This document shows positions 1-28,400 of a stretch of DNA of 64,000 bases, one piece after another; position 1 is the stretch's first letter; each line of letters starts with the position of its first letter. This DNA is from Apostichopus japonicus (taxonomy: Eukaryota > Echinodermata > Holothuroidea > Aspidochirotida > Stichopodidae), in the NCBI RefSeq assembly GCF_037975245.1, contig NC_092568.1, forward strand, positions 12,175,501-12,239,500, written 5' to 3'. Made by a program: the position numbers and the translations under genes. Below the pieces are notes generated by a model that was not told where the DNA came from, ran no database searches, and worked only from the letters and a program-made list of their open reading frames with translations.

Positions 1-437
1 CTTCTTCATATTTCTTTCAGATCCGACCGGTACCAAGACAGCCATCAAATACATGTACTATTGGACTGGTAAGTGTCGCTATATTGTGTCACATGTCATT
101 GCAAAGGTGTTTCTCTTCGGATGTTCATTTGGCGGGTGGGGGGGGGGGGGTGTGGGCGTAACTTACGCTCAATATATACGGTATCATCTGGAGGTATAGA
201 AGGGGACAAACAGTGGTGTGGGAAGGATTTCTTCATAGAGCTATTACGGCTCCTGACTATAACAACAAGTAAACCTATAGCCTTAACGTAATGGACACTG
301 TGACTTTTTTTGTGAGTTTATTGTTTCAGCGATATTAATGGATTCCTCTTTCCTTTCTCTGACAGATGGGGTGTCTTCATACCAACTGAAGGCGAATAAG
401 ATAACAACTCAAACCGAAGGTTTGTAATTTCAAATAT

Positions 438-483
<46 letters not shown>

Positions 484-3400
484 TAAGGAATCATGAATAT
501 CAAATTACAATTTATCTTATATATTAAGTATTCTTATAGATTATAATACCTTTGATGGCCTATTATTCTGTCATATTATGATGTGACGTAATATATTCTC
601 TGTTTACAGACGGACAAACTATCACCCATACACAGGACATTCAACAGTGTGATTACTCTGGTGAGTAACCTACTGTTCATTATTTTGTTATAATTTATTA
701 TTTTAACCAATTATTAATTTATTTATTATTTGAAACAGTCATAAGACATAATTAGCTTCTCATCAACTTAATGATGTGTTTAGCAAATTTCCTCATCTTT
801 CAACCAGTCCACCCACCCTACTCTTCATCACTGTACAAAACATAATCGAGGAAGTTTTAACTCACAATGCTTCAGTATAATATCGATACGGTTACATTTG
901 TAATTATTAAATAATCCATAATTTGTTGTAAATTACTCTCCTCGTTCTCAGTTTTTGGGATTGGCAAGGAAGAGCTTAGCCACATCACTGATAACACTGT
1001 AGTAGGTTAGTAGCTATATACCTCTGTCATTGATATACATGCATTGATATACGATCGCACAGCGATAGAAAGAAATCCATACCTTTGATAATGTCGTGAA
1101 TACTTATATAACCTTCCTCTTGTCAGTTCATCATTGTTGGCTTTTATTGTTTATGGAACGCCACCCACCAGTATAATTTACAAATTAATTTTTTTTTGTT
1201 CGCTTTTTATTTTAGCTGGAAAGCAAACAACAATAAACAAACAATTCAGTTTTCAGACCAGTGTTAGTGGTGAGTTGGATTTATTTATATAAAATATGAA
1301 TGAAATGATTCTTAACCTAACACGATCTGCTCTTCATAAAGTTAAAAGACTTCAAAAGATAAATAATCAAGTTTCTCTGCGAAACTCGTATATTAAACTT
1401 ATTTTATCTTTCTTTGTTCTTTATGTTGTTATATTACCATAGTTTGGAATTAAATTGCTGCTACAAACAGTTGTCATGTAAAGGATAAAAATAAGAACAC
1501 ATGAACCGGATGACAGTAAAGTTTTTATAACAAGTTGCAGTTTTGTAATTAACTTGATTTACATATTGTATCCTCAGACGGGACATCATGCCAGAGTCAA
1601 ACTCAGAGTGGCTCGGAGGAAACTGTATCAGGTATGGTTAAGTAAAGACCATTAACCTTCATTTCTAAGCTATCTTGTGTAAACTAATATTTACGAAAGT
1701 AATAAAGTAAATGTCAAGAAAACTAGTTTAACCTTTCACACTCTTGTTTCTATATTATTTTATATTGTTATGTACCTACTGTATCAAGTATGGTAAATTA
1801 AAAAATGTAGACCACTTGAAGTAACAAACATTTTGTATTAAAGATTGTGTCCCGAGGCTTGCAGGTATCAAAATATAATAATTACTTCTAAACCTTTGTA
1901 TTTACTTCCAGATGATGACGTCACAACTACAGTATATCAGGATCAGCGAATCTCAACTGGTGAGTGATTTTAATCAGAAATAATATTGATTCAGTCATTT
2001 AGTGATATATTACAGTAAATATTCGTATCATAATTAATTAATATCGAGAAATGATGTTACTCTGAGGATCGTGAATTTCTTAATATTAATAAATATAGAT
2101 CAATAATTTATGATACCTTCGCGCTTGTACCGATTTATATCCTATCATGGTCAAGGGGATATCACAGTAGGCTATATTATACGTTGTTGGTGTTGCTTTG
2201 TTTTTTTTTTTTGCTTTTTAGTAGTGCCCTTCTTATACCATATCTTTGTCTTATATATATATGGAGTTTCATCCAGTGTAGTGACGTCATCAAGCCAATC
2301 GACCCGCACAGGTAATTATGAATCGATTATGCAAATGTATACATGAGAGTTTGTATCTCTATTACCGTTAAAGGATTCATCTAAAAAGCGAAAAAAAGAG
2401 CAATTTCTAATACAATCCATGTAGTCATTCATTGCATATTTTCGTGAAGGGGGGGGGGGGACAATGACTTTCTCCGGGAGGGGCAGGCAGAGCCTTTCTA
2501 AAGGCCAAGTATATATATCTCACGATGTTTCCTTCCTTTGTTCTCCATCATAGGCCGATTGAAGACAAATAAATTTATTTTGTATTTTCTTGTTTATAGA
2601 TGATACTTACTACAGCCACAGTTTGCTGGAGACGACTACGAATGGTAATAATTTACTCATCTCAATTTAGCGATACATGTATAGCCTGTCATAATATATT
2701 ATCAATATTACACAAAACAATAATTGTAACAAACATTTGACAGACACATCACGAAGATTGAATTTTCTTAAGTCGTTCGATCGAAGTATTAAAATTCCTT
2801 ACGAAGTATCTATCGAGTATCGAGATATAAGAATTATATGAAAATTTTATACAATCATACTTGGGAGTATTTTCTCACATGTATCGATGAGAAGTTAAAC
2901 GGATGCGTCTTTATATTCGCCGTTTGATTTCATGTTTATGGCGCAACTCGGGGTAACAGTCTGTCTTTTGAAACAATTACCAAATTGTATATTTATTTTA
3001 CAGATGGAAGTTACGAATACCAGGCTGAGGAGATAGACCTACGACAATCAGGTTTGCATATTTACTTCAAAAGATTCCATTTATTTAAAATAAGTACGTT
3101 ATTCTGTAACAAAGTTTAACCAAGGACTGGACATAACATAAAGGATTATTACACACACGTTTGGCCATGGCTATTTCTTGAGTTACATTATCAGACGTGC
3201 ACAGGATTTCAAAGATGGGGGGGGGGGGGTGATTAATTGCTAAATTTGCCCAGACTGATTTACGTAGGGGCATGACCGTAGAATGTACAGATGCGGATCA
3301 AGGGTGCTTATAGGAAGGGGTGTGGCACTGTGGTCTTTTAAGCCGTCTCCCGAATAAGCATACAATGTGCAGACATCAAAATAAATGATGCATTCTGGGG

Positions 3401-4324
3401 TATATTAAGCCTGACTATAAATTATGTCTATAATTCGATCTAACGCAATGTTTGGGCTTTAAAATAGTTTTGAATTTCAGAGTGAGTCTGAAAAGCGGCC
3501 CGTTCACCCCATACCCCTGGTTCTACACCTCAGGACGTCAGTGAGCCCAGAGGAGTGGTGTTATTCTCTTCCTCCCACTGACTATAGAGGAATGGGCCAC
3601 CCCCACTCGGGAAAGCCTCTGATTTTATATTTTTTTCTTTATCCATAAAATATTTTGTAATAAAGTTACCAATAACATCAGAAACAATGTCTCTTAAACG
3701 AATAATGATTTTAACTAGTCATATTGACCTTTGACCTTTCTGAGATTACATTTTCACAGCCACTTTAATATTGACATTGACGATCCTCTTATTTACCAAC
3801 AGACGGTTTTTTCTTCATCAAACAAACCTACCCAGCAGGGAAAGGAGACGACGTGTTCACTAATGGTATGATACATGTTTACATGATCAATATACATTAT
3901 TAGATAATTAAAATGAGTAAATATCAATTAAGAGACATTTCCTCACTAAATGGAATACATTAACCGTTTACAATACTGACCGGTATACGTAAGAGTGTAT
4001 TTTATAGAACATGTATATAAACTGTATACTTCTCTCTGCGATGTTAGTAAATTTTCGCTAGGATCGAAACGTCGGGGCCTTTTACTTTGACACATTTTCT
4101 TACACATGTTCTTTAGTGTTTAAGTAGTTTCCTAACAGTTTTTTTTTTCGTTACTTTTCGTCAATTGCAAAGACAGCTTTCCAAACTAGTATAAGTAATA
4201 ATCTGAACTATTCATGGACCGTATAGTTGCACGAACTTCTTCTGTCCAATTTATTTTTTAGGTGCCATTCTTCTTTTCTTTACATTTTATAACAGATGAT
4301 CGTCACCTTTACCTGCAGTGCTGA
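1..4324 (+). CDS. Micro-exon family gene, copy A (3' part, exons 12-23)
   Basis: Function unknown; I recognise no domain. Twelve exons, numbered after copy B: 21-68, 366-419, 610-660, 952-1005, 1216-1269, 1578-1631, 1912-1959, 2261-2311 (or 2222-2311), 2600-2644, 3004-3051, 3803-3865 and 4296-4324, the last ending in TGA. Each is 45-63 nt (last 29) with AG before and GT after, except the acceptor of 2261, which reads AT. All introns are phase 1, so most exons begin with Asp or Gly built over the junction (for example DGVSSYQ, DGQTITH, DDDVTTT, DDTYYSH) and end in Thr, Ser, Asn or Glu. The peptide is rich in T, S, Q and D, with few Cys. It ends in DDRHLYLQC. Compared with copy B there are only about a dozen residue changes and no exon indels, while introns differ freely. 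The 5' exons lie left of the window. Confidence 0.75.
441..482. repeat. (AAT)n microsatellite in an intron of copy A
   Basis: About 14 uninterrupted AAT units just after exon 13 of copy A. The same intron of copy B carries only about five units near 24037, so the tract has changed length since duplication. Confidence 0.95.
2222..2311 (+). other. Exon 19 of copy A: lost acceptor, in-frame upstream alternative
   Basis: The exon body 2261-2311 matches copy B exon 19 (26096-26146), but the two bases before it are AT in copy A and AG in copy B. The next AG upstream (2220-2221) follows a long T-rich tract. Splicing there would give a 90-nt exon in the same phase with no stop, adding 13 hydrophobic residues starting VVPFLYHIF. 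In copy B the same extension contains TAA right after VVPF. Alternatively the exon is skipped in frame. Splicing outcome is inference. Confidence 0.55.
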
Positions 4325-5089: not shown

Positions 5090-5213
5090 CATTAAAGCAT
5101 CTGTTCTTTTCTGTTTATTTACACGTTAGATAACCAAGGGATAAGGAAATAACGGCGTGGGGGGGGGGGGCTGGTATTGGCTTCCCTAAGAATCGTAGGT
5201 AAACTATTGCAAT

Positions 5214-5454: not shown

Positions 5455-5560
5455 ATTGCTTATAGTAGTTTATACATAAGGAACACGTCATTGTGGTCAC
5501 TCCGTAGCGTTATGATTCAGTTACTCGTATGGCGGGCCATCAGTCTCAAATCATGGGCAA

Positions 5561-5670: not shown

Positions 5671-7857
5671 CTTAAACCTGATATTTGTCATGTCACGCCT
5701 TTTTCACTGGCACAACATCTTTTGTGTTTTCCCCAGGCTCAATATGGGTGTACTATACTTAAAGCATATATCTTACAGTTCTCATGATTTAATTCAGCTG
5801 TGTCAACTGATATGCTTCTGATTTGTTACATTCCACTACAAGAGAGTATACAAAACACAAATAAATGGGAACAAACATAAAAGAAAGTAAATTTGAATCA
5901 ATGGTAAATAACATGTAAATAATGGACTTGACTTTACAATATTTTGCATATAGCCACTCATCGATCTTGTAGACAGAATTATATCCTCTCACTCAAACGC
6001 AAAATGAGAGCAGGGACATCCAGCGGGCAAGCAGGGAGAATCCCCTGCTAGGGAGAATCCCCTAATAGTGAGGAGGGAAACTTCGCCTGACCTCTGCCAA
6101 TCGTAGTTCATGTGATTGAAAGATTGAAAACAGGTGTGCCAAGGTTGTATCATTCCCTTTTCTAATGTCTAATGTCGTTATAGTTTTAAATCCATAGAAA
6201 GGATATAGCAGCATATAGCTCTGTTATGATTGTATATAGTGTATTTTATAAGTGTATTTTTTTTCAGAGGGAATTTCATATAAGAACGCTTTCCCTTTTA
6301 GCTTTCCCTCCATTTCATGGCGGTTAGTTCTTGGGATCAACGTAATCTCTAATCATCCATGACTTGAAACGGAATACAAAGAATGTTTCTATAGTTCACA
6401 TGTTCTCATTGGTTCTTCCTTCCTTTTGACACTTACAACACTTACAATACTTACTACTATGATGTTCTTTTTTTAAAGAATAAATTTGTTGCATAAATAA
6501 ATTTGGGTCAGGCGATGAATTTAAAGTTAGTTAGGGGGGGGGGGGGGGGTCTTCGTTGGCCCATAGTCTAATTAAATATGATGGTCCCACCCAATGTTGC
6601 ATGTTTTTGATGATAAGATATATTTGCCTCAAACCGTATGAATTGAGCGTGACAAAACTGCTTGTTACCCAATGGCAATATCAGATCCTAATACAAGACG
6701 ATACCATGGTTACGTACTAAGGTTACCCAATTTAACTAGCTGCGTTCCGCTTGTTTATTTCTTTGTTATAGAGATCTGATCTGAGATACAATTTTCATGC
6801 TTCAGTAACTTATCGGCAAACTGAAATGAGAAGGAGGGGCGGCGGTGAGGGTAGAGTAGCTACGACCTTGAAAAGGTTGGTATTGCCTCCTATAACTTAT
6901 GCTTTATAGAGATTTTAGCTGCTGATAGAGTCGACCATGTCAGAGTGTTGACTTGTGTTGCACATATAAAAGCTATAAAAACATCCAAACCCCGTGCTCG
7001 TCACCGTCCCTTCCTCATTACCATTCAGTCTTTCAAAATGCAACAATTGTAAACAACGTTGGCTATTAATAGATCAAAATTTGATGTTTATAAAGATGAT
7101 TCTAACATTTTGTATTAAACTATAAATACACACTTGGGGGGGGGGGGGCTTTACATGCAACTACCGCAGTTTCAGAAGATCAATAAACACATCTAGTCAC
7201 TTGCGGACTAAACAAAGACTTGTATTCTAGACGAATTCCCGATCCCCGTATTTCCCAAATCTACTTGCATAAATTCAAAACCCTATGAATTCTGTCTCGG
7301 GTTTCGAATTACGGTGCTATTTCCAGCCATTCAGATACATAAATAAGATTAGTCACATGTAGTTAACGTGTTTGACTTAATAAGTATTGTCCATTCCTTA
7401 TTCAAAAAGGTCTTGAAATGTGAATAAGTATTGTTTGTTGAAATTTCAGGCTTAATCCAAGTTCATGATCGTCTGCATGAAATATAGTTGTAAAGGGAGA
7501 CAACATACAGCAAGAACTCTCTTGCGAGCATAATCTTACGAAACCTTTTGTGGATAAGAAGATTTCACGGAATCCGTTTTTCTTTTACTGCTTGCTTCGA
7601 AGTCATCGATATATCGGGGCATAAGCCTATTGTACATTTAAGTCTTGAAAGGAAGCGACATTCTTGCTGCTTGCAATGTAAACAAAAACATTGGAGCGTG
7701 AGTTTCTTGTTAATAAAGATTTTCAGATCCGTTGTTCTAATGAGAGTAAAACCGGATGAATAGAGATTTCGTTGAAAGCGGTGTCGTTCACTGTTACCAA
7801 TAGATTGTATCCAACCAACAATATCAATTTAAACTCGTAGAAAGTTAACTCATCAAA

Positions 7858-7918
7858 TGGTTCAGTGGATAGCGCAGTGGACTGGTAACCTAATCAACTG
7901 AGTTCGACTCCATCGATG
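7858..7918 (+). repeat. tRNA-like (SINE head-like) sequence, copy 1
   Basis: Reads like a tRNA 5' half: TGGTTCAGTGGATAG resembles an A box, ACTGGTAACC an anticodon arm (anticodon would be GGT), and GTTCGACTCC (7902-7911) is a good B box. The acceptor stem does not close, so a functional tRNA is unlikely; a tRNA-derived SINE head or tRNA relic fits. Two further copies lie at 31731 and 34728 inside the same larger duplicated module. Confidence 0.5.
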
Positions 7919-8028
7919 GTTGGTTCTACACGTTTAAAATTTCTTTTTCTATTTCAGTAGTCGACGCTGAAGTCTTGATATATTAATTCAACCATATAAA
8001 TTACTAGCTGATGTGGTGGCCGATGCTG

Positions 8029-8301
8029 TTAAGAGGGTGACGAAAGACTCATTCCTTGTCGGTCGTGTAAATCGTGGCTAGGGTTCAAGACAGGCCTCTG
8101 GCGATAATACCTCAGGCTGTGGCATGGTGCTTTTTTGTGGCCTAGGATCCCGTACCATGTCTCCCTTGTTGTCGCAAAAGAACCCGGGAGGATGCGCAGA
8201 AGGTCGGTCAAATCGACCAGAAGCGTACTAGGTGGCGTGCGTGAATCCTTGCCTTTGGCCAGCGGTGGTGACATCTCTGCGACCGGCATGCTTGCAGCCA
8301 C
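8029..8301 (-). other. ORF-bearing repeat body, copy 1
   Basis: A 90-codon ORF (contains SFATTRETWYGILGHKK) that recurs at 31863-32141 and 34858-35169 with few changes. I recognise no domain. It sits about 110 bases downstream of the tRNA-like sequence in all three copies and is probably the body of a composite repeat rather than a host gene, since its conservation is explained by recent duplication. Confidence 0.3.
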
Positions 8302-10627
8302 CGTCCACTGAATATGTGGCCTGATGAGGCGCTATTCTCCTAAAAGAGAGTCTACGGATGCCTTTAAGAGCCATATAGTTATTTTATATTAAAAAAAACA
8401 CCCTGTTTCAAACTAGCGCCATCGGATTCCTTAAAAGCCGTTTTTTTTTCTTGTCACTCTGAAGGTGGAATGGATTTTATTGTAATAGGTTATTTGTGGT
8501 AGGCCAAGCAACACATTCAAACAGTCATGCGGTTCACAGGGGTTTGCAGGAACTTAATTAGGCTCATTGTTTGATATAATTTGTTGGTAATGATTTACAC
8601 AACCTACACCAAAACAAGCATTATATTCGTTGCAATACAAGAGACATACAAGCCGACAAGACCATGAGATAAAATTTTAATATATATAGAAGTCAATCTA
8701 TATCACTTTTGCAAGAAAACCAAAGTATACTAGTTTCAATATGGTCCCATTATAAGCAACAATGTTAATGTAACAAATTATCATACCGGATAGTAGGTAG
8801 TTTCGGAAACTGAGTGATTCTTAAGAACTTTGTTTGAGATTCACAAAAACAAAACATAAATACCCCGTATTGTGTTTTGATAACTTCAGCAACAAAATTA
8901 AGTTTGATATGCCGTGGACCGTTAAAAACTACTGCTCTCGGTCTAGCTAGGGTTGTATAGCACATTTACTTATTTTTTTGTTTGTTCTTTTGAATGACCC
9001 TTTAAACAGTTGAGGTTCACTAGTTAAAGTGACTGGACCATTTAATTAGTTAATTACACAGCCAATCAGACTAGTTCCTCTGTTGGTTGCACTACACAAC
9101 TCATTGGGAGAAATTAAGATGATATGGTCTCAAATGACATGTTTATAATTTATTACAAATTTGTTAAGGACAAATGATGTCGAATGCCATCCAAGGGTGC
9201 TCTGTTGCGTATATGAAGTTTAACGAACATATTCTGGTTGACCTAAAAACAACGGATAAACATTAACTATAACAACTGCAGTGAGGAGCCGACGTCACCA
9301 TCAAGTTAGCCTAAACGAATATTCCAGAAATTAAGTATATTTAACGATACATATCTTGAAAAATAATGGAATAGCTACAGAAACATTATTGGACTCAAAG
9401 TTGTCTGTTTTCTTTGTATTATAACATATCAAGACTCAAATGCTGCCTTATTTATTATTTAATTATTTAAGTGAGTTATCGAGTTACAGCAAAATGTAGT
9501 TGCCGATCATTCTCCCGTGATTGATTACCGGGGATGCTTTTTAAGAAAAGTCACCCAGGAAAGAACCTGCGCAAGAAAACCAAACTACGGAACGTCTGAT
9601 CTGCTCTCAACCCCAGTCCCCTTGCATCGAGACTGTGTATAACCATTCCCCTCGTAAGGGAACAGATACTACACATGATCTTCGGGGATGTCTTCAACTC
9701 TTCGGTCTATCTGTTCGTTGTACACGTCTCTGGATAAAAGTAGTTTTATCTCGGAAGAATGTTACCCGATTCCCTGTTCTTTATTATAATTGTTTTACAA
9801 GTCAATAGTGTAGTTGGTGTGCAATAAATTTACCTATTGATCGTTTTCTGCTTGAAAAAAAAATAAACTTAGACCAAACTAATTATAGACTTGAGTAATG
9901 CCTCAGAATGCATCATTTCACGTCGAATATTTGTTTAGGGGAGGTAGAGGGAGAGAGGAAGTGGAGGGTAGGGGAGGGGAGGAGAGGGGAGGGTGAGCGG
10001 GGTCCCCCGTATCCTCTTTCAGGAAGTTGGCTTCTCAAGGCCCCTATCACGTCCTTTATCCGCCTCTGTTAGCTAAGTGCTGTGTCATGCATATATTTCA
10101 CAACTCGCAAATATTCAATTCTACGGAAGACTCCGCTCAACAACTCTACAAAGCAATTCTGAATAGGTCAAAAGAATATGGTTCCTGTAGTGAATTTGAA
10201 CCGGGAACAGATAGTGGATATGGAAAACTCACGAAGGACACTGCATGATCATTGCGAAAGCGTAGGACATATAGGTCGCCTTCAGCGTAGCCTACAACGG
10301 TATAGTGTCAAAGATGCGCTAGATCCATTACTCTCATACCTTTCACAAACAGTAAAGTCAGTACACGCACGAGGATACATACGTTTGTTACTGTATGATT
10401 TCTTGCAGTGCGTCCATGCACACTTAGCGATGGAGCCAACTTACGCGTACACGTGCGCGCATTCGCTTACCGATGCGCTATAACAGTTCTCTGTAAGTTG
10501 TATTTTTATGGGCCGAAGCGCAACAACAGATCTTGGAGCGTAACTCGTTGAAACCCCTTATCTACATTAGTGTAGATCAGTGGTTGAAACGCACTGAGTG
10601 ATCATTGCGCGAGCGTTACTGTACATG

Positions 10628-10675: not shown

Positions 10676-13098
10676 TATATATGTAATGTAATGTTTATAT
10701 TGCAATTGCTCTTCGTTGAAGATAAGTCTATTGTGCGATTTTTCAAGATGTTCTTTACATTTTCACTGGCAAGCTACTATGCTTCCTCTTACATGGCTAG
10801 GAAGTTCACCAAATTCCTGGCCTATGGGCGAGGTAAGTTATGACCAACAAATATATGTTTATTTGTTCCATTTTGAGTCGTCATTTTATGTGGAACGCTA
10901 TACAAAGGGATGTCCTCGAGTTATTTGGAATTTCTCGTATTAAGATATGATACTAACTTTATAGGACAATTAGTTCAATATAGACATCATCTCACATGTT
11001 AAACATCAGTTTAAGTTTGTTTGATTTGATGAACCCTATTGTGAGTACAATTCCTACAAGATATTACGTACGCCAATAACATTAACTTTGTGTACGATTT
11101 TATTGTTACCATATTTTTATACGGTAACTGTAAGTCCGAATAAAGCGTAATACCTATATAACGGGATTTTCAGATATTATGTTTGCTTCATAAACAATCC
11201 AATCAGATAAAACATGACATCACTTAATAGGTCAATATCAACATACAATTTGGTACGGTGTGTAGGGTGGGATAAGGGTGAGGTGCTGTTGGGGCCTGGA
11301 TGGCCAGGCCATCGTTACTGTGTACGTGACGTATTTCATTAACTACGTGTTTTATAGTACTAGGTGAATGTAACATCGATTGTCAATATTAGGAAGGCCG
11401 ATTACTGAGAGAAGATTGTCCAGCGATCATAATTTGTATTTTAATGCTTTATAAAGCGTTCATAAAAGTTCCCTATATTCAGTTCGTTCCTTTCAATTCA
11501 AGTTGTCCATCTCCCATCCCACGCTATCCTTACTCTTGAGGAGTCCAATATGTCATTGAAAATGACTTGCTGATCTCAGTCAACAGTGTTTCTTCTTTAC
11601 ATGCCAACCAAAATAAAAAGCTAGCCCAGTGACACACACCCGTCCATAGTGACGCCTAACAAGACTTATATCAGGTCTCTGCATACAATGTTTCTGATTT
11701 CATATACTAACCAAAGTATAAGGCAAGTCATTAAAACAAACTGAATTCATCTTCATAGTTAGTCCGATATATTTTCCTTTTTCCTCAGCTCAATACATCC
11801 TCCCAGAAGGATGTTACGGGTATCGTCCTCCGTTTCAAGGTAAGGTGTAGGTCAAACAAAATTACGTCATCCAATTTTGGTTGAGCATTTATATCACATG
11901 AATAATATATCCAAGTAGAGGAATAATACATTGGCAAGTGTATTAAGTAAATGGTGTTTTACTGGAAGGGAAAATGAGATGTGGGCAGAAGTGGTAAGAG
12001 CGTACTTAACTAGGTCAAGGCTTGGAGGATAGGGAGAGGGACCGAGCTTTGAGAATCGGGTTATATAGTTAAGCATTCTCCCGGTGTGATTCCTTTTATA
12101 ATTTTTCCTTCCCCGGTGGGTAATTAAGGAAACGATAGGACGACCGTCCACTCACATAGCACTACCAACCCGCCCTCTCCACCCCCCCCCCTCCCCACCA
12201 CGTAATATATTGAAATTATTGATAAAAGATCTTTATTCCTGTCTCCAAGCAAAGATTTACATACTTTATGATTACTTTATGATTTATTTACATACTTTTT
12301 TTACAGACATACTTTTATTAACAAACATTTTGTAATTGTAACACTTTTTATTATTTCTATATAGATCTACAACGGAAACCCTTCAATCGGGAATTTCCCG
12401 TGACCGAAGAAAATATTTCTTCGCTCCTTTGCTTTCCATCAGGTATTTTCGAAATTCAGTCTGCAATTTGGCAACAGTTCATACCTTCTGAATTGAATTG
12501 TATAATTACACTTCGTAATAAACTTCTGTGACCATAGGCTGTGAATTGCTACTGCCCTCTATTTTACAAGACCCGGACCATAGTCATTTATAAACTCTTC
12601 GTCGTCCATTCAGTGTCTCGTTTCTCTTCTTAATTTTGTTTGGTTGGTCGTTTTCTTAATGCTTTCCTTACTTGCTCTCTTGTGTGTGTTTGAATCTGTG
12701 TGTGCGTTTGTCGAATCATTTATATGGTAAACTACATTATTTCTCAGATAATGTCGCTACATTCTCTGTTTTGTTGTAGAGCAAACCATGCGCATGCGTG
12801 AAGATCTTCTTAACAGTAAGCTTATCAACTTTTCATTCCTTTAATACTTCATCAATATTCATACTATAAACGTTCATTAAAAAAAGATGACATACTTATA
12901 TAAGTTAAACATTAATGTTAACAATACTATTATTAGTCACGTTCTGTTCCTAATAAGAGGTTGTCTTGATGGATACTGAATATCAAAACTTTGTGCGTTC
13001 ATTAAAAACCAAGAAAACATGTAAACTTATTAAAGTCAAAATTTAGTATAAACCATGTTATTATTAACATTCTCTTTTCCTACACTTAGGCTATCTTG

Positions 13099-13822
13099 TG
13101 TTATGAAATAGTAATACCATCTCTTTGATGTTACCGAAAAACTCCATCGAGATACCTTACAGGCCTCTTATGTATTTATCTAGGTCATGGATTCAGTTTT
13201 CCCACGAGAAGTTTTTTAACTATCTTATTGAATCTTGGTACAGGGCCTTTTCCCAAAATAGATTCCATTATGTCTGTGGAACATTCGAGAAGGTTCTCTC
13301 ACGTGGTATGGAAGTTTCCATAGAAAGGGGATGGACTTCCAAACTCCCAACCAATCAGGGCAGATCAGTGCCAGTGCACTTATTTTTATATCGTTAAGTT
13401 AATACAGGATGGTCAGGTCATTGGCTGCCTACTGATTATGCGCAGAGGGATTTTTATAGAAGTAAGGTATAAAAGAAAAAGGAGGTCAGAAATTTATCAC
13501 TCCGTCAGCGCTCCGTGATCAGTTCGTTGCTTCGTCACCATTTCATCACTCTTTCTAATTGTTTAATTGACGGAGTCAAGTCAAGTCAAATCATTGTAAT
13601 TTAGTTTTATTTGTAAAGAGAATCGACAGAGAAGAAATTATACCGAATCATTACTCAAATCCGATCTTGTCAAATTGTTTTTCTGTGAACTCATTGTTTT
13701 CTTCCGTTCGAGACATCTCCTGAAGAAGCATAAATACGGCATCAAGATACCCCAGTACCTTTCTATCGCGAGTCCCGATATAATATCACTATCGGAGGAG
13801 CCGGGCTCGTCACAATATTACA
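13099..13822 (+). repeat. 5' LTR
   Basis: 724 bp, begins TGTTATG and ends ATATTACA. TATAAAA at 13468-13474 is the likely promoter, placing transcription start near 13500. A 90-codon ORF inside it also occurs in the 3' LTR and is not regarded as a gene. Confidence 0.95.
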
Positions 13823-13839
13823 TGGTGGAGGTCGGTTGC
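13823..13839 (+). promoter_or_regulatory. Putative primer binding site
   Basis: TGGTGGAGGTCGG starts directly after the LTR. TGG is the complement of a tRNA CCA end; the first eight bases resemble the complement of a tRNA-Ala 3' end, but the match fades after that, so the primer tRNA is uncertain. Confidence 0.5.
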
Positions 13840-17700: not shown

Positions 17701-19701
17701 CCAGAATTATTTGTTCAGCCAAAGCCAGTCATAACAAACATTGATCATTTGGTTACAGGGCACATCCCAAAACAAAAGGAATTGAATAAAGTCATGAAGG
17801 CAATTCAAGGAAAGCTGATCAAAAACTATGATCTGCCATTTGATGTAAAGGAGTTGCAAATTCAACAACAAACTTGTCCTTACTACAAACCAATTTATGA
17901 TTTTCTTGCACACGACATTATTCCAAGTAATGTTAAGCATGCTAGAACTGTTCGTTCTCAAGCAGAGGATTATTTGTTATGTAATAGTTTGTTATTCAGG
18001 ATATTTTTGCATGAGACTAATGATGCTAAGATGACTCTTCAGTTAGTCGTACCTGAGACTATGGTAGAACCAATAATATCTCGATATCATGATGACTTGT
18101 TAAGTAATCATCAGGGTGTAATGCGTACATATTTGACCATTAGACAGCATTTCTATCTGCGCAATATGTTTCAACGCATCAGTAATTATATTCAGGCATG
18201 TCTCCGTTGTCAAGAATTCCGTAAGAAACCGGACAAATTGAGACAATATCATGCTCGCATTCCTGATTCTTATCGTCCTTTTGACAGACTTAGTTTGGAT
18301 TTCAAGACTATGCCCACAACGGCTACAGGATTTAAACATTTGATGGTTGTTTGTGATGAGATCACTAGATTTGTTGTATGTGTTTCTCTTAAGACGCTTG
18401 ATGCTGAGACAATATGTGAAGCATTATTGCAGAGGGTAGTTACAACCTTTGGTCCACCGTCTTGTATCATAAGTGATGCGGCAGCTTCTCTTACAGGAAA
18501 ATTAGTGGAGCTCTTAAGTAAAGCTTTAGGCATTGAACAAAAGTTCATCAGTGTAAGCAATCATGGAAGCTTACAGGTTGAAAGACACATTCAGACTCTT
18601 TCAAATTTCCTCAAAGTGAACTTAAATCAGTTTGGTACGGATTGGGTACGATTTGTCCCAACATCAGCCTATGCATATAACACATTTTCCTCTCCTCAGT
18701 TAGGTAGCTATAGCCCATTTGAACTTGCATTTGGACGTAAGCCGCCAAATCTTACAAATTTATCATTCAATCCAATGGCAGGATTATCACAATCTCATGG
18801 AGAATATGCTGCATTGTTAAAGAAACGATTTGATCATTTGTCAAGGGTAATGTTGGTCTTACAAAAGAAGCAACAAGATGCTCAGAATGTTAAGATAAGT
18901 GCAAAACTGGACAAAGGTGCAATTTATTCAACGGGTCAATTAGTTTATCTGTATAAGCCAACGTCTTCCTCCTTGACTGCAAACTCTCGCAAAATTGCTG
19001 CAGAATGGTGTGGACCACTAGTGATACATCAAGTTTTGGATAGGACTCATTATTTGTTGGCCACTCTCAAAGGAGAAATTCTTAGTGATGTATTCAATTA
19101 TAACAGGCTTAAACCATGTTTTGTAAGAGCATCTTCTGAAACTAAGAATATCACCAACATTCAGAAATTGCGAAATGTCTTGAAAACAAAGGGTTCATCA
19201 AGTGAAAAGGTTGCACGAATGCGAAATGTTTTGAGTAGTAACACTTCTAATGCAGAAAATGTTAATGTCATGCAAGATGCACATATTGAGTTTCATGATG
19301 AGTTTGGTAACATTTTGCCAGGGGTAACTTCAGATCACATCATGTGTCTTGTGACCACTAAGCCAATGAATGTTGCATCCTTTTTAGAGAATAGAGCACA
19401 TAATGAAGGATTAGCACTTCCATATCCTTCCATCAGAGATAGCATATTAAGGCAAAAGAAAGTTTTTGCAAATGCTCCACAAGGAGACATGAAGGTCCAA
19501 CGTGCTAGATACAAATTGGGTGAATTACAGGTTCTGGTCACCTATCAGACACCATGTTTTCCAACAGGCTTTAAGAGTCATGATTTTTGGTGGAATGTAG
19601 GAAAATATTCCAACACAGGGGAAATAATAAATTTTCTCCATGAAAAGGGATTGAACATTACAGGCAGTCCAAGCAGGATGTTGCAAACATTATATGGTTA
19701 G
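14764..19701 (+). CDS. pol: Pol polyprotein (protease, RT, RNase H, integrase)
   Basis: Open from 14764; counting from codon 14827 it has 1624 residues and no break. Aspartic protease motif LLFDSGATCS has its Asp at 62. Reverse transcriptase spans about 370-610: catalytic Asp 460 (VLDLKSAF) and Asp 528-529 in the box HHDDIIVYS, where most Gypsy elements have YxDD. RNase H acidic residues: Asp 680 (YSDTS), Glu 719 (TELEMM), Asp 746 (YVDHS). Integrase zinc finger: His 1088, His 1095, Cys 1125, Cys 1128. Integrase core: Asp 1158, Asp 1217, Glu 1252 (QVER), with 34 rather than the usual 35 residues between the last two. A Pro/Ser/Thr/Gln-rich linker of about 200 residues lies between RNase H and integrase. 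The roughly 250 residues after the core include a region I cannot assign; no chromodomain seen. Confidence 0.93.
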   Translation, partial: GKQSTNTEFSVGSTYDCTHHTVTPDNVPSKGRSKRKANNIWKNSNIPSSRYTGNDRIVDIQLDTRNFVRGTLHDGKGISLLFDSGATCSIISSSTVQNSKYLSSIQPVSVDVVNLKLGNGQFIHAYSTITFQVKIQGHEFQLSALIAANLTGIDLILGSQTLKELNGSLDFTTNCFRIKQAKVFLRPVQRFVIYPGQQRYITVQGRLPLYARNADMVIKPFPLISRMCPSRMLVKMHKGRTKILLRNMGNRKFFLHPSRTVAHLDLADIITVTEDIPTDSLDFLNVMRDIEKPSLFQTNSNSKENRDEITRYNLHRYPHLTADDPLVSKSEQEIMRENINLEQSILNASETESIYEFLDSHRDAFSLYGELSHCPNYEADITLTNDEPFYIRPYRLSDEDKVIVASELDKLVRLGILAVGHQSYTSPVFLIPKKGTKDKRVVTDFRYLNSRIKRLNHPFPLLNETIRTIGYSGAKILGVLDLKSAFFCLPLSVHAQQYTGIASFHGGKHYYYKRLPQGLNLSPAIFQSQINDILATIPNSNKFCIAHHDDIIVYSADKQSHKQHLQAIFKVLMDNGLKISPKKCSIFQNSVRYMGHLLSITPKGEACIQPLHDRCAAIRNTPKPHNVKSVRRFVGAVNYVASFFPNIQALLRPLHHLSRKRKEFKWTEEHQSAFQSIKELLCNPPILHMPQKYGRFVLYSDTSRVATGSYLTQRVNGKENIIAYYSKILPPACQRYSVTELEMMGLFINVTAFKHLLQNVEFEAYVDHSAIVELFKSKQEPATTRLRKLLFKLSEYTFQVGYKKGSELVLADYLSRAPQEFHSEIDQVAQEVSSYEDFSTPPKETFNPIMTRSKARSMGVKVPDLFPNRVTKESKQDSPAKESTNRVERTSVPKATHSSDHVTQRPQPESQKMTTPVISTDKRETNIQRPTITMPIENRHTFSPDVLVVPNFTSVSQPSEPRLVDQNRHRVQEVIREPPPELFVQPKPVITNIDHLVTGHIPKQKELNKVMKAIQGKLIKNYDLPFDVKELQIQQQTCPYYKPIYDFLAHDIIPSNVKHARTVRSQAEDYLLCNSLLFRIFLHETNDAKMTLQLVVPETMVEPIISRYHDDLLSNHQGVMRTYLTIRQHFYLRNMFQRISNYIQACLRCQEFRKKPDKLRQYHARIPDSYRPFDRLSLDFKTMPTTATGFKHLMVVCDEITRFVVCVSLKTLDAETICEALLQRVVTTFGPPSCIISDAAASLTGKLVELLSKALGIEQKFISVSNHGSLQVERHIQTLSNFLKVNLNQFGTDWVRFVPTSAYAYNTFSSPQLGSYSPFELAFGRKPPNLTNLSFNPMAGLSQSHGEYAALLKKRFDHLSRVMLVLQKKQQDAQNVKISAKLDKGAIYSTGQLVYLYKPTSSSLTANSRKIAAEWCGPLVIHQVLDRTHYLLATLKGEILSDVFNYNRLKPCFVRASSETKNITNIQKLRNVLKTKGSSSEKVARMRNVLSSNTSNAENVNVMQDAHIEFHDEFGNILPGVTSDHIMCLVTTKPMNVASFLENRAHNEGLALPYPSIRDSILRQKKVFANAPQGDMKVQRARYKLGELQVLVTYQTPCFPTGFKSHDFWWNVGKYSNTGEIINFLHEKGLNITGSPSRMLQTLYG

Positions 19702-20958
19702 TACAGTATAACTGCATATTGCTTTAAGTTCAGATGAACAGGTGTTTTACCCACGATTGTATGAATGGAATGCATCATGGCATTTACCTGCATACCTATT
19801 AAGTGGAAGTCATTGTACTATATGGTGTAACAGTATAAGCTTTATTGTTTAAAAACGCCACTAAGTGACCTAGTTTCATCTTTTATAACAAATGTGTAAT
19901 GAGTATACCTTATTTCTCCTTATGAATTCGTTCAAACGTTTACCCGGCAATTAGAACATATCCGGAATATTAGCAACATGGGTTTTCATATATTGAGAAA
20001 TATTTTAAGGATATTTACATTGCATTATTTATGTTATATTGAAAGCTATTCAGAGACAGCATTGAAGATATGCAACTTTTGCTCACAGCAACAGTTATCG
20101 AAGCAAATGAAAGTATAGATCTTTTGAGGAAGTTATGTATATATTTTCTTTTCCTCAAATATTCATGCGAAAGTTTAATTTCATCATGAAGTTTAAAAGT
20201 CAAGATGTTAAGTATTATGTAAATTTGAAGAAAGATTTGTTGATGTCATAGTCTATGGAGTCTCTTTTATGGTATCGAATATCTAGTACTTTGGTACTTT
20301 ACTAGACTATCATTCGGAGTGCATACCTAGGGTCACCATGCTATCGAGTCACATTTTGTTGATTTTCTTGAAGTGGATGTATATGATTCACAAGGTTTCA
20401 AAGCGGTTTTGAAACTATGCCTTCATTAAAGAGGAGGTTTTGTAAATGAGTTTGTAATATTTTAAGGTTCTTTTTTTGTGTACGAATTTTTCATGGAACG
20501 CTGAGGTGTTCTGTTCAGTTAAAAGATAACTAAGTCAAGTTTTCTCTGATCTCTCCCCAAATCACGGCATGATTTCACTTTTGATATAAATGTATTATTG
20601 ATGTATGAAATGCATAAATGTATTTTGTTAAAAGAGATACTGCATATTTTGCTGTGTCATGTAACTTTAAGATATCTTAATGATATATATATATATTTTT
20701 TTTTAGATTACATCATATGATGTCATCAATATTGAAGAGGTACACAAAAATTTCATGGAGATAGTGTCAATGTATAGAACATATGATCATTTTAATAATT
20801 CGTAACCAAGATGTTAACCTTTGAGATATATGAAGACCATTTATTGAAGTCAATGAATATTAGTGAATGTGCTTACAGTACTCTACCTTCTTGAGATAAT
20901 GATAAGTTAAAGCGGTATGATGTTAAAATTTTGGAGTATCCAAAAATTTTAAAAGATT
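19702..20958 (+). other. Untranslated 3' region of the LTR element
   Basis: About 1.26 kb between the pol stop and the polypurine tract. No ORF of note, so no envelope-like gene. AT-rich, with a short (AT)n tract near 20683. Confidence 0.7.
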
Positions 20959-20966
20959 GAGGGGGA
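20959..20966 (+). promoter_or_regulatory. Polypurine tract
   Basis: GAGGGGGA directly before the 3' LTR, the expected plus-strand primer site. Confidence 0.8.
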
Positions 20967-21690
20967 TGTTATGAAATAGTAATACCATCTCTTTGATGTT
21001 ACCGAAAAACTCCATCGAGATACCTTACAGGCCTCTTATGTATTTATCTAGGTCATGGATTCAGTTTTCCCACGAGAAGTTTTTTAACTATCTTATTGAA
21101 TCTTGGTACAGGGCCTTTTCCCAAAATAGATTCCATTATGTCTGTGGAACATTCGAGAAGGTTCTCTCACGTGGTATGGAAGTTTCCATAGAAAGGGGAT
21201 GGACTTCCAAACTCCCAACCAATCAGGGCAGATCAGTGCCAGTGCACTTATTTTTATATCGTTAAGTTAATACAGGATGGTCAGGTCATTGGCTGCCTAC
21301 TGATTATGCGCAGAGGGATTTTTATAGAAGTAAGGTATAAAAGAAAAAGGAGGTCAGAAATTTATCACTCCGTCAGCGCTCCGTGATCAGTTCGTTGCTT
21401 CGTCACCATTTCATCACTCTTTCTAATTGTTTAATTGACGGAGTCAAGTCAAGTCAAATCATTGTAATTTAGTTTTATTTGTAAAGAGAATCGACAGAGA
21501 AGAAATTATACCGAATCATTACTCAAATCCGATCTTGTCAAATTGTTTTTCTGTGAACTCATTGTTTTCTTCCGTTCGAGACATCTCCTGAAGAAGCATA
21601 AATACGGCATCAAGATACCCCAGTACCTTTCTATCGCGAGTCCCGATATAATATCACTATCGGAGGAGCCGGGCTCGTCACAATATTACA
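20967..21690 (+). repeat. 3' LTR
   Basis: Same length (724 bp) as the 5' LTR and apparently identical. Its TATAAAA at 21336-21342 points toward exons 6-23 of the interrupted micro-exon gene, so it could drive a transcript of them. Confidence 0.95.
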
Positions 21691-24600
21691 CTTGATCTCA
21701 CGCTTCAAGACCAGCTAAAACTCTACCCTGACTTTGGGCTGGCAAACCTTGAAGGTGAGTTATGAACTTGAGATCTTATATTGAAATAAATACACATATG
21801 ATTATTATTTAACTATTAGAACACGAACAGGTGGTTAGACTATTTCAAAGACAGTATGATAGTTTTAGTTTTCTTTTCATTTATCTTAAGTTTAGTTATT
21901 ATTATTTCTTGGTCCACAGAGTGCCTCCTTCACAGACTTTCTTCAAGTATTCCTCTCGATCACAAGAACGGTAATTTACGCTTACATAAATCAGTTTTAT
22001 CAAGTGTAAGAAAGATCAGACTATTCATGAAACATGTTATCCGTGTTCAACTAGTTAAACTGAATTTAATATTTATACTTTCAGATCCTGCGAGAATCTA
22101 TTTTATTGCAAATTCCTGTGACTTTGGGATCATTTCTTTACCTCGAAGTGAGTTTGATTGTTTTAAGCAAGATCTCATTGAATGTGTTCATTTTTTTTAC
22201 TAAATTTGATAGAATTCTAATTAACTACTGGGTCTTTGTATTATCCGCATACCCTCTCTATATACTCACAAGCCCCTCATCCAACGCTCTTTCTTACCTT
22301 TCCTTACCTCCTCTCCACACATTTCACTGACATGCTCTTCTCTTTCAGTCACTCCCTTTCCCCTCTACACTTCCCTTCTGACTGAATGTTGAAGCACTTT
22401 CACTGTGACTAAAATTACTTGCATGTATTAAGTGTGAAGTGGTCTTAGTAGGTGCAACAATTAAACTCTTAATGTGATTTCACATAAACTTGCATTTAAT
22501 AGAATTAAACCTATGACCCTGAAAACGAGTCTTATTTAGTGACATATCCAGAAGAACAAGTTCCTACTGATGTAAGAGGAGTAGCGGCCTTATCCCCCCT
22601 CCCTCACCCCTTACCCCATTACATATTATTACCGGCAATGTTGTATCTTCATTAAGCTCCAAAATAAGCATCAACATTTTTCTTGCATGTTTAAACTTTT
22701 AATAGTCGAGCAGTACACGACCCCTGCTGCCTTCGAGAAGCATCAACAAGATGATACTACCTCTACCTGGTCTGGTAAGATATATTTTGGTTCCATTCAG
22801 TACTTCATAATTTTCGTGACTTTGTTATATTATAAACGATATGTTTTTAGTGAGATGCATGGCACTTCAGTAAAATAATTTGGTTTATAGTTTATCGCCA
22901 ATAAGTAATCAAAAAGGGAAGGAAATCAAACTCTCGTTGTCAAAAAAGTGGTTATATCTTTATATTTAAAAGTTTAGCCAATTTTATTCACGCTGCAGAT
23001 ATTCAGGGCCAACACACTCAACAGACCACAACAACGAGATATGAAGGTAAAGTAACACTCACTGTAGTCGGTAGGCTATAATATATGGTTATACTATATT
23101 GAAGCATTTAGGTATATCTTCTTTTTCAAGACTGTATGTAAGGGGGGGGGGCGGTCACTTGTGGAAGTCTCTGCAGTACCGTATTAAATATTTATCAGTA
23201 AATAAAACAGTTTGACGAGAAAAGTCACATTTTCGCTTTTCAGGTTACACCCTGACTTACTACCAGTACACCTTCAAAAGTTCAACTGGTGAGTATTGAG
23301 TGAAATTGGATTAAGTATTGTGCGCAAGAAAAGACAAGTTAATACTAAACTGATTTGAATAAAAAAATATTAATATTAATCTTTCACTTCGTCAATAATT
23401 TCGACTCAAGGGATAATAAACCTGAGATTTATGCATTGAAAGTCTTCTTGGCTGTTTAAAAATATAACATTATTTGAATCTCTTTCAGGCCCTGATCAGA
23501 TGCAAAACACCGAGGAAACTCTAACAGGTGAGAAATATAAATTGTTTGTTAACACATCACAGAGTTTTGATTGATTTGAGAAAAAAAAAATTATTACTTC
23601 GAACTGCTTTTTTCATATTCCTTTCAGATCCAACCGGTAACAAGACAGCTACCAAATACATGTACTATTGGACTGGTAAGTGTTGTCATATTGTATCACA
23701 TGTTCTTGCTGGGGTGTTTCTCTTTGAATGTTCATTTGGCGAGGGGGGGGGGAGGTGGGGGTACCTTATGCTCAGTTTAGACTGTATCATCTGGGGGTAA
23801 AGAATGGGATAAACAGTGGTGTGGGAAGGATTACTTATATTATATTACATTATTGACTTACAAGAAGTAAGCATATATCCTTAACGTCATCGACACTGTG
23901 ACTTTTTCTGTGAGTTTATTGTTTCAGCGATATTAATGGATTCCTCTTTCTTTTCTCTGACAGATGGGGTGTCTTCATACCAACTGAAGGCGAATAAGAT
24001 AACAACTCAAACCGAAGGTTTGTTATTTCAAATATATAATAATAATAATAATAAGGAGCCATGAATATCAAATTACAATTTATCTTATATATTAAGTATT
24101 CTTATACATTAATAATTCTTTTTATTGCCTATTAGTCTGTCATATTATGATGTTAAGTAATATATTCTGTGTTTACAGACGGACAAACTATCACCCATAC
24201 ACAGGACATTCAACAGTGTGATTACTCTGGTGAGTAACCTACTGTCCATTATTTTATCATTATTTATTATTTTAGCAATTACTAATTTATTTATTATTTG
24301 AAACGATCATAAAATATAATTAGACAAAAGATTGTGTTAAGCAAATTTCCTCACCTTTCCACCAGCCCACCACCCTACTCTTCATCACTGTACAAAACAT
24401 AATCGTGGAAGTTGTAACGCACACTGCTTCAGTATAATATCGATACGGTTACATTTGTAAATATAAAATAATCCATAATTTGTTGTAAATTACTCTCCTC
24501 GTTCACAGTTTTTGGGATTGGTAAGGAAGATCTAAGCCACATCACTGATAACACTCTAGTAGGTAAGTAGCTATATATCTCCGTCATTGATATACATGCA

Positions 24601-24825
24601 TTGTTATACGATCGCACAGCGATAGAAAGAAATACGTTCCTTTGATAATGTCGTGAATACTTATATAACCTTCCTCTTGTCAATTTATCATTGTTGGCTG
24701 TTATAGTTTATGGAACGCCACCCACCCAGTATAATTCACAAATTTATTATTTTGTTCCCTTCTTATTTTAGCTGGAAAGCAAACAACAATAAACAAACAA
24801 TTCAGTTTACAGACCAGTAGTAGTG

Positions 24826-25400
24826 GTGAGTTGGATTTATTTATATAAAATATGAATGAAATGAATCATAATCTAACGCGATCTCCTTTTCTTAAAGCTA
24901 AAAGACTTCTCTCGTATATTGAAGTTACTTCATCTTTCTTTGTTCTTTATGTTGTTATATTACAATAGTTTCGGATTAAATCGCTGCGGACCGAAAATAT
25001 ATGCACTATATGTACTACAAACAGTTTGCATGTAAAGGATCAAACTAAGAACACAAGATCCGGATGACAATAAAGAGGTTTTACAAATTGTTGTTTTGTA
25101 ATTAACTTGATTTATCGATCTGCTCTTCTTAAAGTAAAAGCACTTCAAAAGATAAATAATCAAGTTTTACTTCAAAACTCGTATTTTAAAGTTATTTTAT
25201 CTTTATTTATTGTAATGTTCTTTAATTACCATAGTTTGGTATTAAATTTGCTACACTGACCGAAAATATATGCACTATATGTACTATGAACAGTTTTTCT
25301 GTAAAGGATAAATATACGAACACATGAACCGGATTGCAGTAAAGAGGTTTTACAAATTGCAATCTTTGTAATGAAATTGCTTTAAATCTTGTATCCTCAG
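24826..25400. repeat. Intron 16 of copy B with internal duplication
   Basis: This intron is 575 bp against 308 bp in copy A. A block containing CCGAAAATATATGCACTATA occurs twice, near 24990 and 25260, so about 270 bp were tandemly duplicated in copy B only. Confidence 0.7.
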
Positions 25401-28400
25401 ACGGGACATCATGTCAGACTCAAACTCAGAGTGGCTCGGAGGAAACTGTATCAGGTATGATTTAGTAAAAACCGTTAACCTTCATGTCTAAGCTATCTTT
25501 ATGTAAACTAATATTGACGAAAATATAGTCTTATTTTGCAGTAAATGTCAAGAAAAACAGTTTAACCTTTCACACTCTTGTTTCTATTGTTTCATAATGC
25601 TATGTACCTGCTGTATCAGGTACGGTAAATGAAAAAAAAAAATTGTAAATCACTTGAAGTGAGAAACATTTTGTATTAAAGATTGTGTCCCGAGGCTTGC
25701 AGGTATCAAAATATAATAATTACTTCTAAACCTTTTGTATTTGCTTCCAGATGATGACGTCACAACTACAGTATATCAGGATCAGCGAATCTCAACTGGT
25801 GAGTGACGTTTATCAGAAATAATATTGATTCAGTCATTTAGTGATATATTACAGTTAATATTCATATCATAATAAATTAATATCGAAATATTCAGTTACT
25901 CTGAGGATCGTGAATCTCTCAATATTTATAAACATAGATCAATAAATTTATGATACCCTCGCGCTTGTACCGATATATATCCCATCATGGTCAAGGGGAT
26001 ATCACAGTAGGCTATATTATACGTTGTTGGTGTTGCTTTGTTCATTTTCTTTTTAGTAGTGCCCTTCTAATACCATATCCTTGTCTTATATATAGATGGA
26101 GTTTCATCCACTGTAGTGACGTCATCAAACCAATCGACCCGCACAGGTAATTATGAATCGATTATGCAAATATACGTAAACGGTACTCTTCTGTAGGAGT
26201 TTGTATCTCTATTAAAGTTAAGGGTTCATCTAAAAAGCGAGAAAAACATTCTAATGCAATCCTGTAGTCATTCATTGTATAAATTTCGGGGAGGGGGGGA
26301 TTTCTTGGAGAGGGGCAGGCAGAACCTTTCTAAAGGCCAAGTCCTGACAATTTAAATATCGTGTTTATATCTCACGATGTTTCCTTCCTTTGTTCTCAAT
26401 TATAGGCCGATTGAAAACAAATAAATTTATTTTGTATTTTCTTGTTCATAGATGATACTTACTACAGCCACAGTTTGTTGGAGACGACTACGAATGGTAA
26501 TAATTTACTCATTTTAATTGGGCGATATATGTAACGCCATGTATAGCCATTCATAGCATTTATATTATCAATATTACACAAAACAACAATTGTAACAAAT
26601 ATTGACAGACACATCACGAAGATTGAATTTTCTTAAGTCGTTCGATCGAAATATTAAAATTCCCTGCGAAGTATGCTATCGGTTATCGAGATATAGGAAT
26701 TACATGAAAATTATATACAATCATACTTAGAAGTATTTTTCTTACATTTATCGATGAGAAGTATACGCATGCGTCTTTATTTTAGCCGTTTGATGAATGT
26801 TTATGGAGCAACTCGGTGTAACAGTCTGTCCTTTGCAATAATTATTAAATTGTTTATTTATTTTACAGATGGAAGTTACGAATACCAGGCTGAGGAGATA
26901 GACCTACGACAATCAGGTTTGTATATTTACTTCAAAAGATTTCATTTATTTAAATTAAGTACGTTATTCTGTACCAAAAGTTTAACTATTGATTGGACTT
27001 TTACATATATATGATTATTTTACACACGTTTACCATGGCTATTTCTTGAGCTACATCAGCAGACGTGCACATGATTTCAAATATGGGGGGGGGGGGGGGG
27101 GTTCATTGCTATATTTGCCCAGACTGATTTACGTAGGGACATGACCGTAGAATGGACAGAGGCAGATCAAGTGTTCTTAAAGGAAGGGGTGTTGCCATGT
27201 GGTACGTGTTTGAAGCCGACTCCCGAATAACTATTAAATTTGCAGACAACAAAATAAATGATGCTTTCTGTGGTATATTTAGACTAAATATTATGTCTAT
27301 AATTCGATCGAACGCAAGTTTTGTGCTTATAAATACTTTTGAATTTTTGAGTGAGTCTGAAAAGTTCACCCCATATCCCCTGGTTCTACACCTCGGAACG
27401 TCAGTGGGCCAACAAGAGTGGTGTTATTCTTTTCCGACCGAATATCCCCTTACTGAGGCTTCCTCCCACTGACTATGGAGGAAGGGGCCATCCCCACCCC
27501 CCCCTACTCCGGGCAAGCCACTGAGTTATATTATATTTCCTTCATCATTAAAATATCTTATAGTTAATGAAAGCAATAACGTCTGAACAAGGTTTCTTTA
27601 TCGAATACAGATTTTAACTAGTCATATTGACCTTTGACCTTGACATGACCATCCTCTTATTTACCAACAGACGGTTTGTTCTTCATCAAACAAACCTACC
27701 CAGCAGGGAAAGGAGACGACGTGTTCACTAATGGTATGATACATGTTTACATTATCAATATACATTATTAGATAATTAAAATGAGTAAATATCAATTTAG
27801 TGACATTTTTATCACTGAATGGAATACGTCACGCGTTTACAATACTGTGCGGTATACGTAACATAGCATTTTATAGAACACTTATATATACTGTATCACT
27901 TTTCTTCAGTTTCAAAGGCAGCTATGTTATAAGGGACGAGTCCCTAATGCGGACCTAAACTGTAAATACTTCTTCGTTTCAAATTCCAGACTAATATAAG
28001 TAATAATTTGATTATTCATGGACCGTATAGTTACAAGAACTTCTTCTGCCCAATTTATTTTTTGGGTGTCATCCTTCTTGTTTTTATTTCGTTACAGATG
28101 ATCGTCACCTTTACCTGCAGTGCTGATGACTTTTACCCCTTGGGGTAGGGGTGGGGTGAGCCAGTGCGGTACGTGAAGGGTCGGGTGCTGTTGAGTAACA
28201 AAGTCCCATATCCACTGGTTGGATGTCGAAGAAGCTTGATCTCTGTCCATCCATACTACATCAGATCACTGGCCGGATGTGATTCCTTGGTAACCATGAC
28301 GTCATCAACTTCCTATCACTCATATTGATATATTCAGCTATGCTTTGTTTCGCAATGTGTTTGTTTCGTTGTAATCGTCAAATATATCGTTTGTATCCGT

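Follow-up and report, generated by a model that had tools for sequence, protein, structure and literature searches.

Introns at the predicted strand turns of a tandem sea cucumber gene family built of short symmetric exons

Four copies of one gene, here called A, B, C and D, lie inside longer tandem duplications in the 64,000-nucleotide (nt) stretch of the sea cucumber Apostichopus japonicus analysed here (the window; assembly GCF_037975245.1, contig NC_092568.1, positions 12,175,501 to 12,239,500 of the forward strand; Table 1). Gene B consists of 23 exons of 29–85 nt separated by 22 introns, all of them GT-AG and all in phase 1, and its exons join into a single open frame. The 21 internal exons are all multiples of three in length (range 36–78 nt, median 51 nt) and the introns are in phase 1, so that any internal exon can be dropped without a frameshift. 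An earlier note on this DNA had described this chain and its frame-safe exons, and its exon sizes, introns and phases hold; its length of 410 codons does not apply to gene B, whose chain as it stands counts 402 codons and takes up exon 5 from 21710. The longer form requires a 69-nt exon 5 like that of copy C (37796–37864). Among the related database proteins described below (P0001 to P0008), P0001 has the matching eight extra residues, and P0001 and P0002 indicate that 410 codons is the right length for the gene family.

Pieces that run from AG to GT and are open in phase 1 are frequent by chance: 178 occur in 6436 bases of gene B, against 96–131 in five shuffles. The exon chain alone therefore proves little, and it is the conservation between A and B, together with the database proteins, that lifts it above chance. 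P0001, an A. japonicus protein of 410 residues, covers 100% of the B product at 93% identity and provides an independent check on the chain. That B is the same gene as P0001, P0002 or P0003 was rejected, since the identity is 93% at best.

Exons 12–23 of A and B (599 nt) differ by 17 substitutions and no gaps, whereas their 11 intervening introns have 53 gaps, of up to 270 nt, and 438 differences over 3476 aligned bases, in agreement with the earlier note's description of exons that differ by substitutions only and introns that carry large indels. Differences per site amount to 0.024 at nonsynonymous sites (pN), 0.047 at synonymous sites (pS) and 0.126 in introns, and both coding classes are lower than the introns (Fisher p 5e-14 for nonsynonymous and 0.004 for synonymous sites). 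A comparison of nonsynonymous with synonymous rates (dN/dS), proposed in the same note, is less decisive, as the ratio is 0.5 by the NG86 estimator (0.024/0.048) but 0.9, near 1, by YN00 (0.028/0.031). The low synonymous rate could reflect splicing signals inside the short exons, and the exon–intron contrast could be inflated through intron misalignment. The A product differs from P0001 at 14 of 198 residues and from P0002 at 12 of 198.

Several of the copies are interrupted. In gene B, a Ty3/gypsy-type long terminal repeat (LTR) retrotransposon interrupts exon 5 after its first 9 nt; the element is flanked by a CTTG duplication and has an open reading frame (14827–19701) with protease, reverse transcriptase, RNase H and integrase domains. 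Its LTRs (13099–13822 and 20967–21690) are 724 nt each and identical to each other, suggesting that the break is recent. An AG deeper in exon 5 preserves the frame and yields the 402-codon chain, and skipping exon 5 would be equally frame-preserving. In A, the AG acceptor of exon 19 is lost. Judged by eye, the closest AGs are found 6 nt into the exon and 36 and 39 nt before it, all at frame-keeping distances. The insertion in exon 7 of copy C has inverted ends like CAGGGGCGTATCCAGG (by eye) and is probably a DNA transposon. For copy C, a tblastn search with P0001 found none of exons 1–4 and 13–23 between B and D. Intergenic tandem duplications (31088–36571 versus 5950–9806) are 90–96% identical and the A and B introns 87%; as the intergenic copies are the more alike, they and the genes may have been duplicated on separate occasions. 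A cystatin gene sits between copies C and D, and no transfer RNA gene was found in the window.

Table 1 Gene copies, exons and other features of the window (window coordinates)
Feature	Positions	Strand	Remark
Gene A, 3' half only	21–4324	+	exons before 12 outside window
A exon 12	21–68	+	
A exon 13	366–419	+	
A exon 14	610–660	+	
A exon 15	952–1005	+	
A exon 16	1216–1269	+	
A exon 17	1578–1631	+	
A exon 18	1912–1959	+	
A exon 19	2261–2311	+	acceptor dinucleotide AT, not AG
A exon 20	2600–2644	+	
A exon 21	3004–3051	+	
A exon 22	3803–3865	+	
A exon 23	4296–4324	+	stop included
Gene B	10748–28126	+	23-exon chain
B exon 1 (MFFTF...)	10748–10832	+	85 nt
B exon 2	11789–11839	+	51 nt
B exon 3	12365–12442	+	78 nt
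B exon 4	12780–12815	+	36 nt; absent from P0003
B exon 5, initial 9 nt	13090–13098	+	severed by retrotransposon
Ty3/gypsy-type LTR retrotransposon in B exon 5	13099–21690	+	LTRs, domains
B exon 5, 3' part	21710–21754	+	45 nt; in-frame AG acceptor
B exon 6	21920–21970	+	51 nt
B exon 7	22085–22147	+	63 nt
B exon 8	22706–22774	+	69 nt; first predicted strand
B exon 9	22999–23046	+	48 nt; one predicted strand
B exon 10	23244–23288	+	45 nt; one predicted strand
B exon 11	23489–23527	+	39 nt; one predicted strand
B exon 12	23628–23675	+	48 nt; one predicted strand
B exon 13	23964–24017	+	54 nt; one predicted strand
B exon 14	24179–24229	+	51 nt; one predicted strand
B exon 15	24509–24562	+	54 nt; one predicted strand
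B exon 16	24772–24825	+	54 nt; one predicted strand
B exon 17	25401–25454	+	54 nt; one predicted strand
B exon 18	25751–25798	+	48 nt; one predicted strand
B exon 19	26096–26146	+	51 nt; one predicted strand
B exon 20	26452–26496	+	45 nt; one predicted strand
B exon 21	26869–26916	+	48 nt; one predicted strand
B exon 22	27671–27733	+	63 nt; last predicted strand of sheet
B exon 23	28098–28126	+	29 nt including stop
Copy C, fragment	37796–41272	+	exons 5–12, two insertions
C exon 5	37796–37864	+	complete 69-nt form
C exon 6	37995–38045	+	
C exon 7, left part	38160–38190	+	positions counted from printed flanks; right part from 39513
Insertion in C exon 7, 1.3 kb	38191–39512		between two copies of AAATTC (6-nt duplication)
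C exon 8	40269–40337	+	
C exon 9	40574–40621	+	
C exon 10	40820–40864	+	
C exon 11	41048–41086	+	
C exon 12	41202–41272	+	continues into unrelated DNA and stop (end of P0006)
Cystatin gene	52291–55303		3 exons, phase-0 introns; Pfam Cystatin E 8.1e-17
Gene D, exons 1–2 only inside window	from 62911	+	similarity to B
D exon 1	62911–62995	+	3/85 nt differ from B
D exon 2	63594–63644	+	1/51 nt differs from B

Protein searches were run against 5.77 billion proteins at E <=10, and reach relatives that share five-residue words and are of similar length. They returned eight proteins in all (four, five and eight per search), every one holothurian: P0001–P0004, P0006 and P0007 come from A. japonicus, and P0005 and P0008 from Holothuria leucospilota, a species of the same order but of another family. 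Within this reach, no PDB sequence and no non-holothurian protein related to the product was found. The profile search suggested in the earlier note agrees, in that Pfam gave no family above cut-off for the B product, P0001–P0003, P0005 or P0008. P0004 (BSL78_28099), an older model, fuses the first exons of this family to an AhpC/TSA domain; it meets the AhpC-TSA Pfam cut-off in this unrelated second half and is probably an annotation chimera. P0008 aligns with P0001 ungapped over exons 14–23, with 51 of 165 residues identical (31%; z 14.7 over shuffles), and exon 19 keeps its length with 2 of 17 residues identical. The exon anatomy is thus observed in the DNA of the window, and the gap-free conservation of the exons across copies and, at the protein level, across two sea cucumber families. 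Residues 1–16 carry no charge and do not vary among the six A. japonicus models, even though the overall identity of P0003 to B is only 72%.

Internal exons are missing in frame from five of the eight database models: exon 4 is absent from P0003, exon 5 from P0007, exon 7 from P0006, exons 2, 4, 5 and 9 from P0004, and several exons from P0005. All 23 exons are present in P0001 and P0002, and P0008 consists of exons 14–23, with only the start absent; P0006 and P0007 end early too. P0006 joins exons 1–4 of B to exons 5, 6 and 8–12 of C with zero residue differences within exons, skipping B exons 5–23. The exon row of P0005 is 6, 10, 11, 14, 15, 16, 19, 20, 21, 3, 5, 6, 15, 16, 21, joined at A. 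japonicus exon borders (the exon 3 match is weak and exon 6 exceeds its A. japonicus length; both were placed by eye), and it seems to string together exons of two or more copies. The exon-19 junction residue is D in P0005, where exon 16 runs directly into exon 19, and N in P0008, where exon 18 precedes it; as read from the proteins, this switch is allowed by a phase-1 codon, whose first base comes from the preceding exon. P0001 is labelled 'isoform X2', which by NCBI custom means a second annotated isoform. All eight proteins are computed gene models, and annotation programs do mischain exons in tandem arrays; the exon absences may be an annotation effect or true gene-level loss. Of the earlier note's reading, the exon symmetry, the tandem arrangement and the dropping of exons without a frameshift are real.

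The product is predicted to fold in its C-terminal part as a polar, threonine- and glutamine-rich antiparallel sheet of about 15 strands. An AlphaFold model from four sequences (predicted template modelling score, pTM, 0.42) draws 15 antiparallel strands over exons 8–22, and 183 of 410 residues, all within residues 157–391, have a predicted local distance difference test score (pLDDT) of at least 70. Adding one relative raised the mean pLDDT from 42.8 to 55.9, with blocks over residues 271–390 reaching 70–91. Helices are drawn in exons 1–7 at low pLDDT, and the N-terminal part has no confident model. Each of the 14 turn windows of the predicted sheet domain contains exactly one of its 14 introns, where a turn window extends from the last residue of the preceding strand through the first of the next and the windows make up 32% of the domain. 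This outcome was reached in none of 20,000 random placements (best 11) and in 0.14% of cases when the exon order was permuted and the start shifted. By a strict count, 11 of the 14 junction residues lie in loops and three (168, 281 and 299) are the final residue of a strand; in a previous model made without a Holothuria sequence, 12 of 14 lay outside strands (binomial p 7e-5). P0001–P0003 show no indel in exons 8–21, with indels in exons 5, 7, 22 and 23 and exon 4 absent from P0003, suggesting that the sheet is length-fixed inside exons, yet that a whole exon can go. Among the matches listed by Foldseek, the best has E 2.7e-3, template modelling scores are at most 0.31 and identities are 3–10% (ApoB-100 and outer-membrane porin sheets). 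These proteins were compared by structure only, and unlike them the sea cucumber product has strands without hydrophobic alternation; a membrane barrel or lipid belt was for that reason rejected and is not claimed.

We consider the best explanation, at a probability of roughly 0.6, to be a holothurian-restricted tandem protein-coding family in which an exon corresponds to one strand and an intron to a turn, making the exon a frame-safe structural unit. Each sheet exon would contribute one strand plus turn, with the intron placed at the turn between two strands. With all internal exons in phase 1-1, the frame can survive the disappearance of an exon, a transposon insertion into it or its joining to an adjacent copy. 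The G that ends an exon would mostly start the junction codon, tending to give D, G, A, V or E, and as D and G are turn formers, splice consensus and turn would coincide. Strands may then be removable without losing the sheet, and the protein, with a strand number that varies, would act in binding or as a scaffold and not as an enzyme, because no catalytic family was matched and the strands are polar. Diversity made by splicing is possible. We think it rather improbable that splicing goes as far as to add or remove single strands of one sheet, both inside one gene and from copy to copy of the tandem array, so as to give sheets of varied strand number and face from one locus, with the splice consensus writing the D/G turns and introns and turns having co-evolved.

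Several observations weigh against the reading of exons as strands. The model comes from four sequences with a pTM of 0.42, its global shape is not trustworthy, and AlphaFold may be drawing regular strands on threonine-rich sequence with D/G turns. As the phase-1 junction codon mostly starts with the exon-final G (D, G, A, V, E), the splice consensus by itself favours turn residues at junctions. No in/out alternation of hydrophobic residues is seen in the strands of the first model (p 0.97 and 0.89). Beyond their first two residues, exons are no more alike than shuffles (p 0.36; p 0.615); with these residues included, similarity exceeds shuffles (0/500; p 0.02) because of the shared D/G start. 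An origin via exon duplication was rejected on this shuffle-level similarity, which does not show growth of the gene by that route. In addition, protein constraint between A and B is clear against introns only and not against synonymous sites, and among the copies, exon 5 is broken in B, an acceptor is lost in A and C amounts to a fragment.

Three alternatives overlap with this explanation, and the probabilities given to them and to it do not sum to one. The most serious, which we hold to be possible though not favoured, is an ordinary constitutive multi-exon family in which the short symmetric exons are accidental and missing exons reflect annotation error or pseudogene decay; it accepts the exon anatomy and denies it a role. 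Damage in three of the four window copies (exon 5 of B, exons 7 and 12 of C and the exon 19 acceptor of A), the probable chimera P0004 and the full exon sets of P0001 and P0002 fit such a family, but introns at 14 of 14 turns, and ten exons ungapped against a protein of the other family, go beyond expected accident. It is unlikely, in our estimation, that the sheet is wrong and the T/Q/S-rich half is instead disordered, perhaps O-glycosylated and secreted, with intron places reflecting D/G codons at splice sites. The composition of residues 146–400 (T 19.6%, Q 11%, S 9.8%, D 9%), the absence of hydrophobic alternation and the shallow alignment with its low pTM speak for disorder, whereas exon lengths kept indel-free at 31% identity are unusual for disordered sequence, and the gain in pLDDT from a single added relative also argues for a fold. 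A similarly low probability attaches to a generator of the kind represented by schistosome micro-exon genes (MEGs), in which regulated exon skipping and inter-copy splicing would yield numerous forms of a protein that is secreted or sits at the cell surface, a diversity-generating role suggested in the earlier note; it overlaps with the best explanation and adds use at the RNA level. The symmetry of all 21 internal exons, the in-frame absences in P0003–P0007, the B-to-C junction of P0006 and the isoform label of P0001 fit such a generator. However, models of tandem genes are often mischained by annotation programs, the P0003 and P0007 genes may simply be without those exons, sheet exon lengths kept across two families argue for a fixed fold, and A and B show no sign of positive selection (pN/pS 0.5; 0.9 by YN00).

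Short symmetric exons as such are already known, in elastin and collagen and in the PEVK region of titin. Tropoelastin and the fibrillar collagens have small symmetric exons of one phase, with the exon as protein unit, and their products are repetitive and unfolded or triple-helical, whereas the sea cucumber product is a predicted antiparallel sheet. Schistosome MEGs resemble the present family in having many short symmetric exons, in forming a gene family and in having a lineage-restricted product. By one account, about 80% of MEG coding sequence lies in symmetric exons of 6–36 bp and the products are secreted (PMC5825161); by another, MEG exons range from 6 up to 81 bp with a majority of 15 bp (PMC10526429), and micro-exon in its general meaning denotes at most 51 nt. 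The internal exons of gene B, by contrast, measure 36–78 nt and encode a predicted folded sheet, one strand per exon: one of 21 is within 36 nt, 13 are within 51 nt, and all 21 pass the range of up to 81 bp, though atypical in size. Schistosome MEG membership by the 6–36 bp rule was rejected, given the single exon of that size and the median of 51 nt. The earlier note's MEG label fits poorly: it agrees with the symmetry and with the wider size range of PMC10526429, and not with the 6–36 bp rule or the typical 15 bp. This gene family may work like a MEG; the protein searches at E <=10, which reach only proteins of similar length sharing five-residue words, returned holothurian proteins and none from schistosomes.

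Calling MEGs the only close parallel, as the earlier note did, is too strong. Titin PEVK has more than 100 short repetitive exons, those of PEVK-C being repetitive and homogeneous (PMC6469411), and splicing of titin I-band exons alters size and elasticity (PMC12054628). It is alike in its many short exons and unlike in their homogeneity, since the sea cucumber exons are dissimilar in sequence, and no sequence relation was found. The accessible portions of an H. glaberrima preprint (PMC13228809) and of the A. japonicus genome paper (PMC10344927) contain nothing on such a gene family. In the open-licence PMC literature, sea cucumber combined with microexon returned nothing relevant, the P0004 locus tag is not mentioned, and no description was found of a folded protein in which each of 15 exons encodes a single strand.

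It has long been asked, as in the exon theory of genes, whether exons match structural units of proteins. With every sheet intron at a predicted turn and lengths kept over two sea cucumber families, this family would allow a clear test, and those of its tandem copies in which transposons have struck exons would serve as natural experiments in the removal of single strands. With it, a further animal lineage would be known to have genes that consist almost entirely of short symmetric exons.

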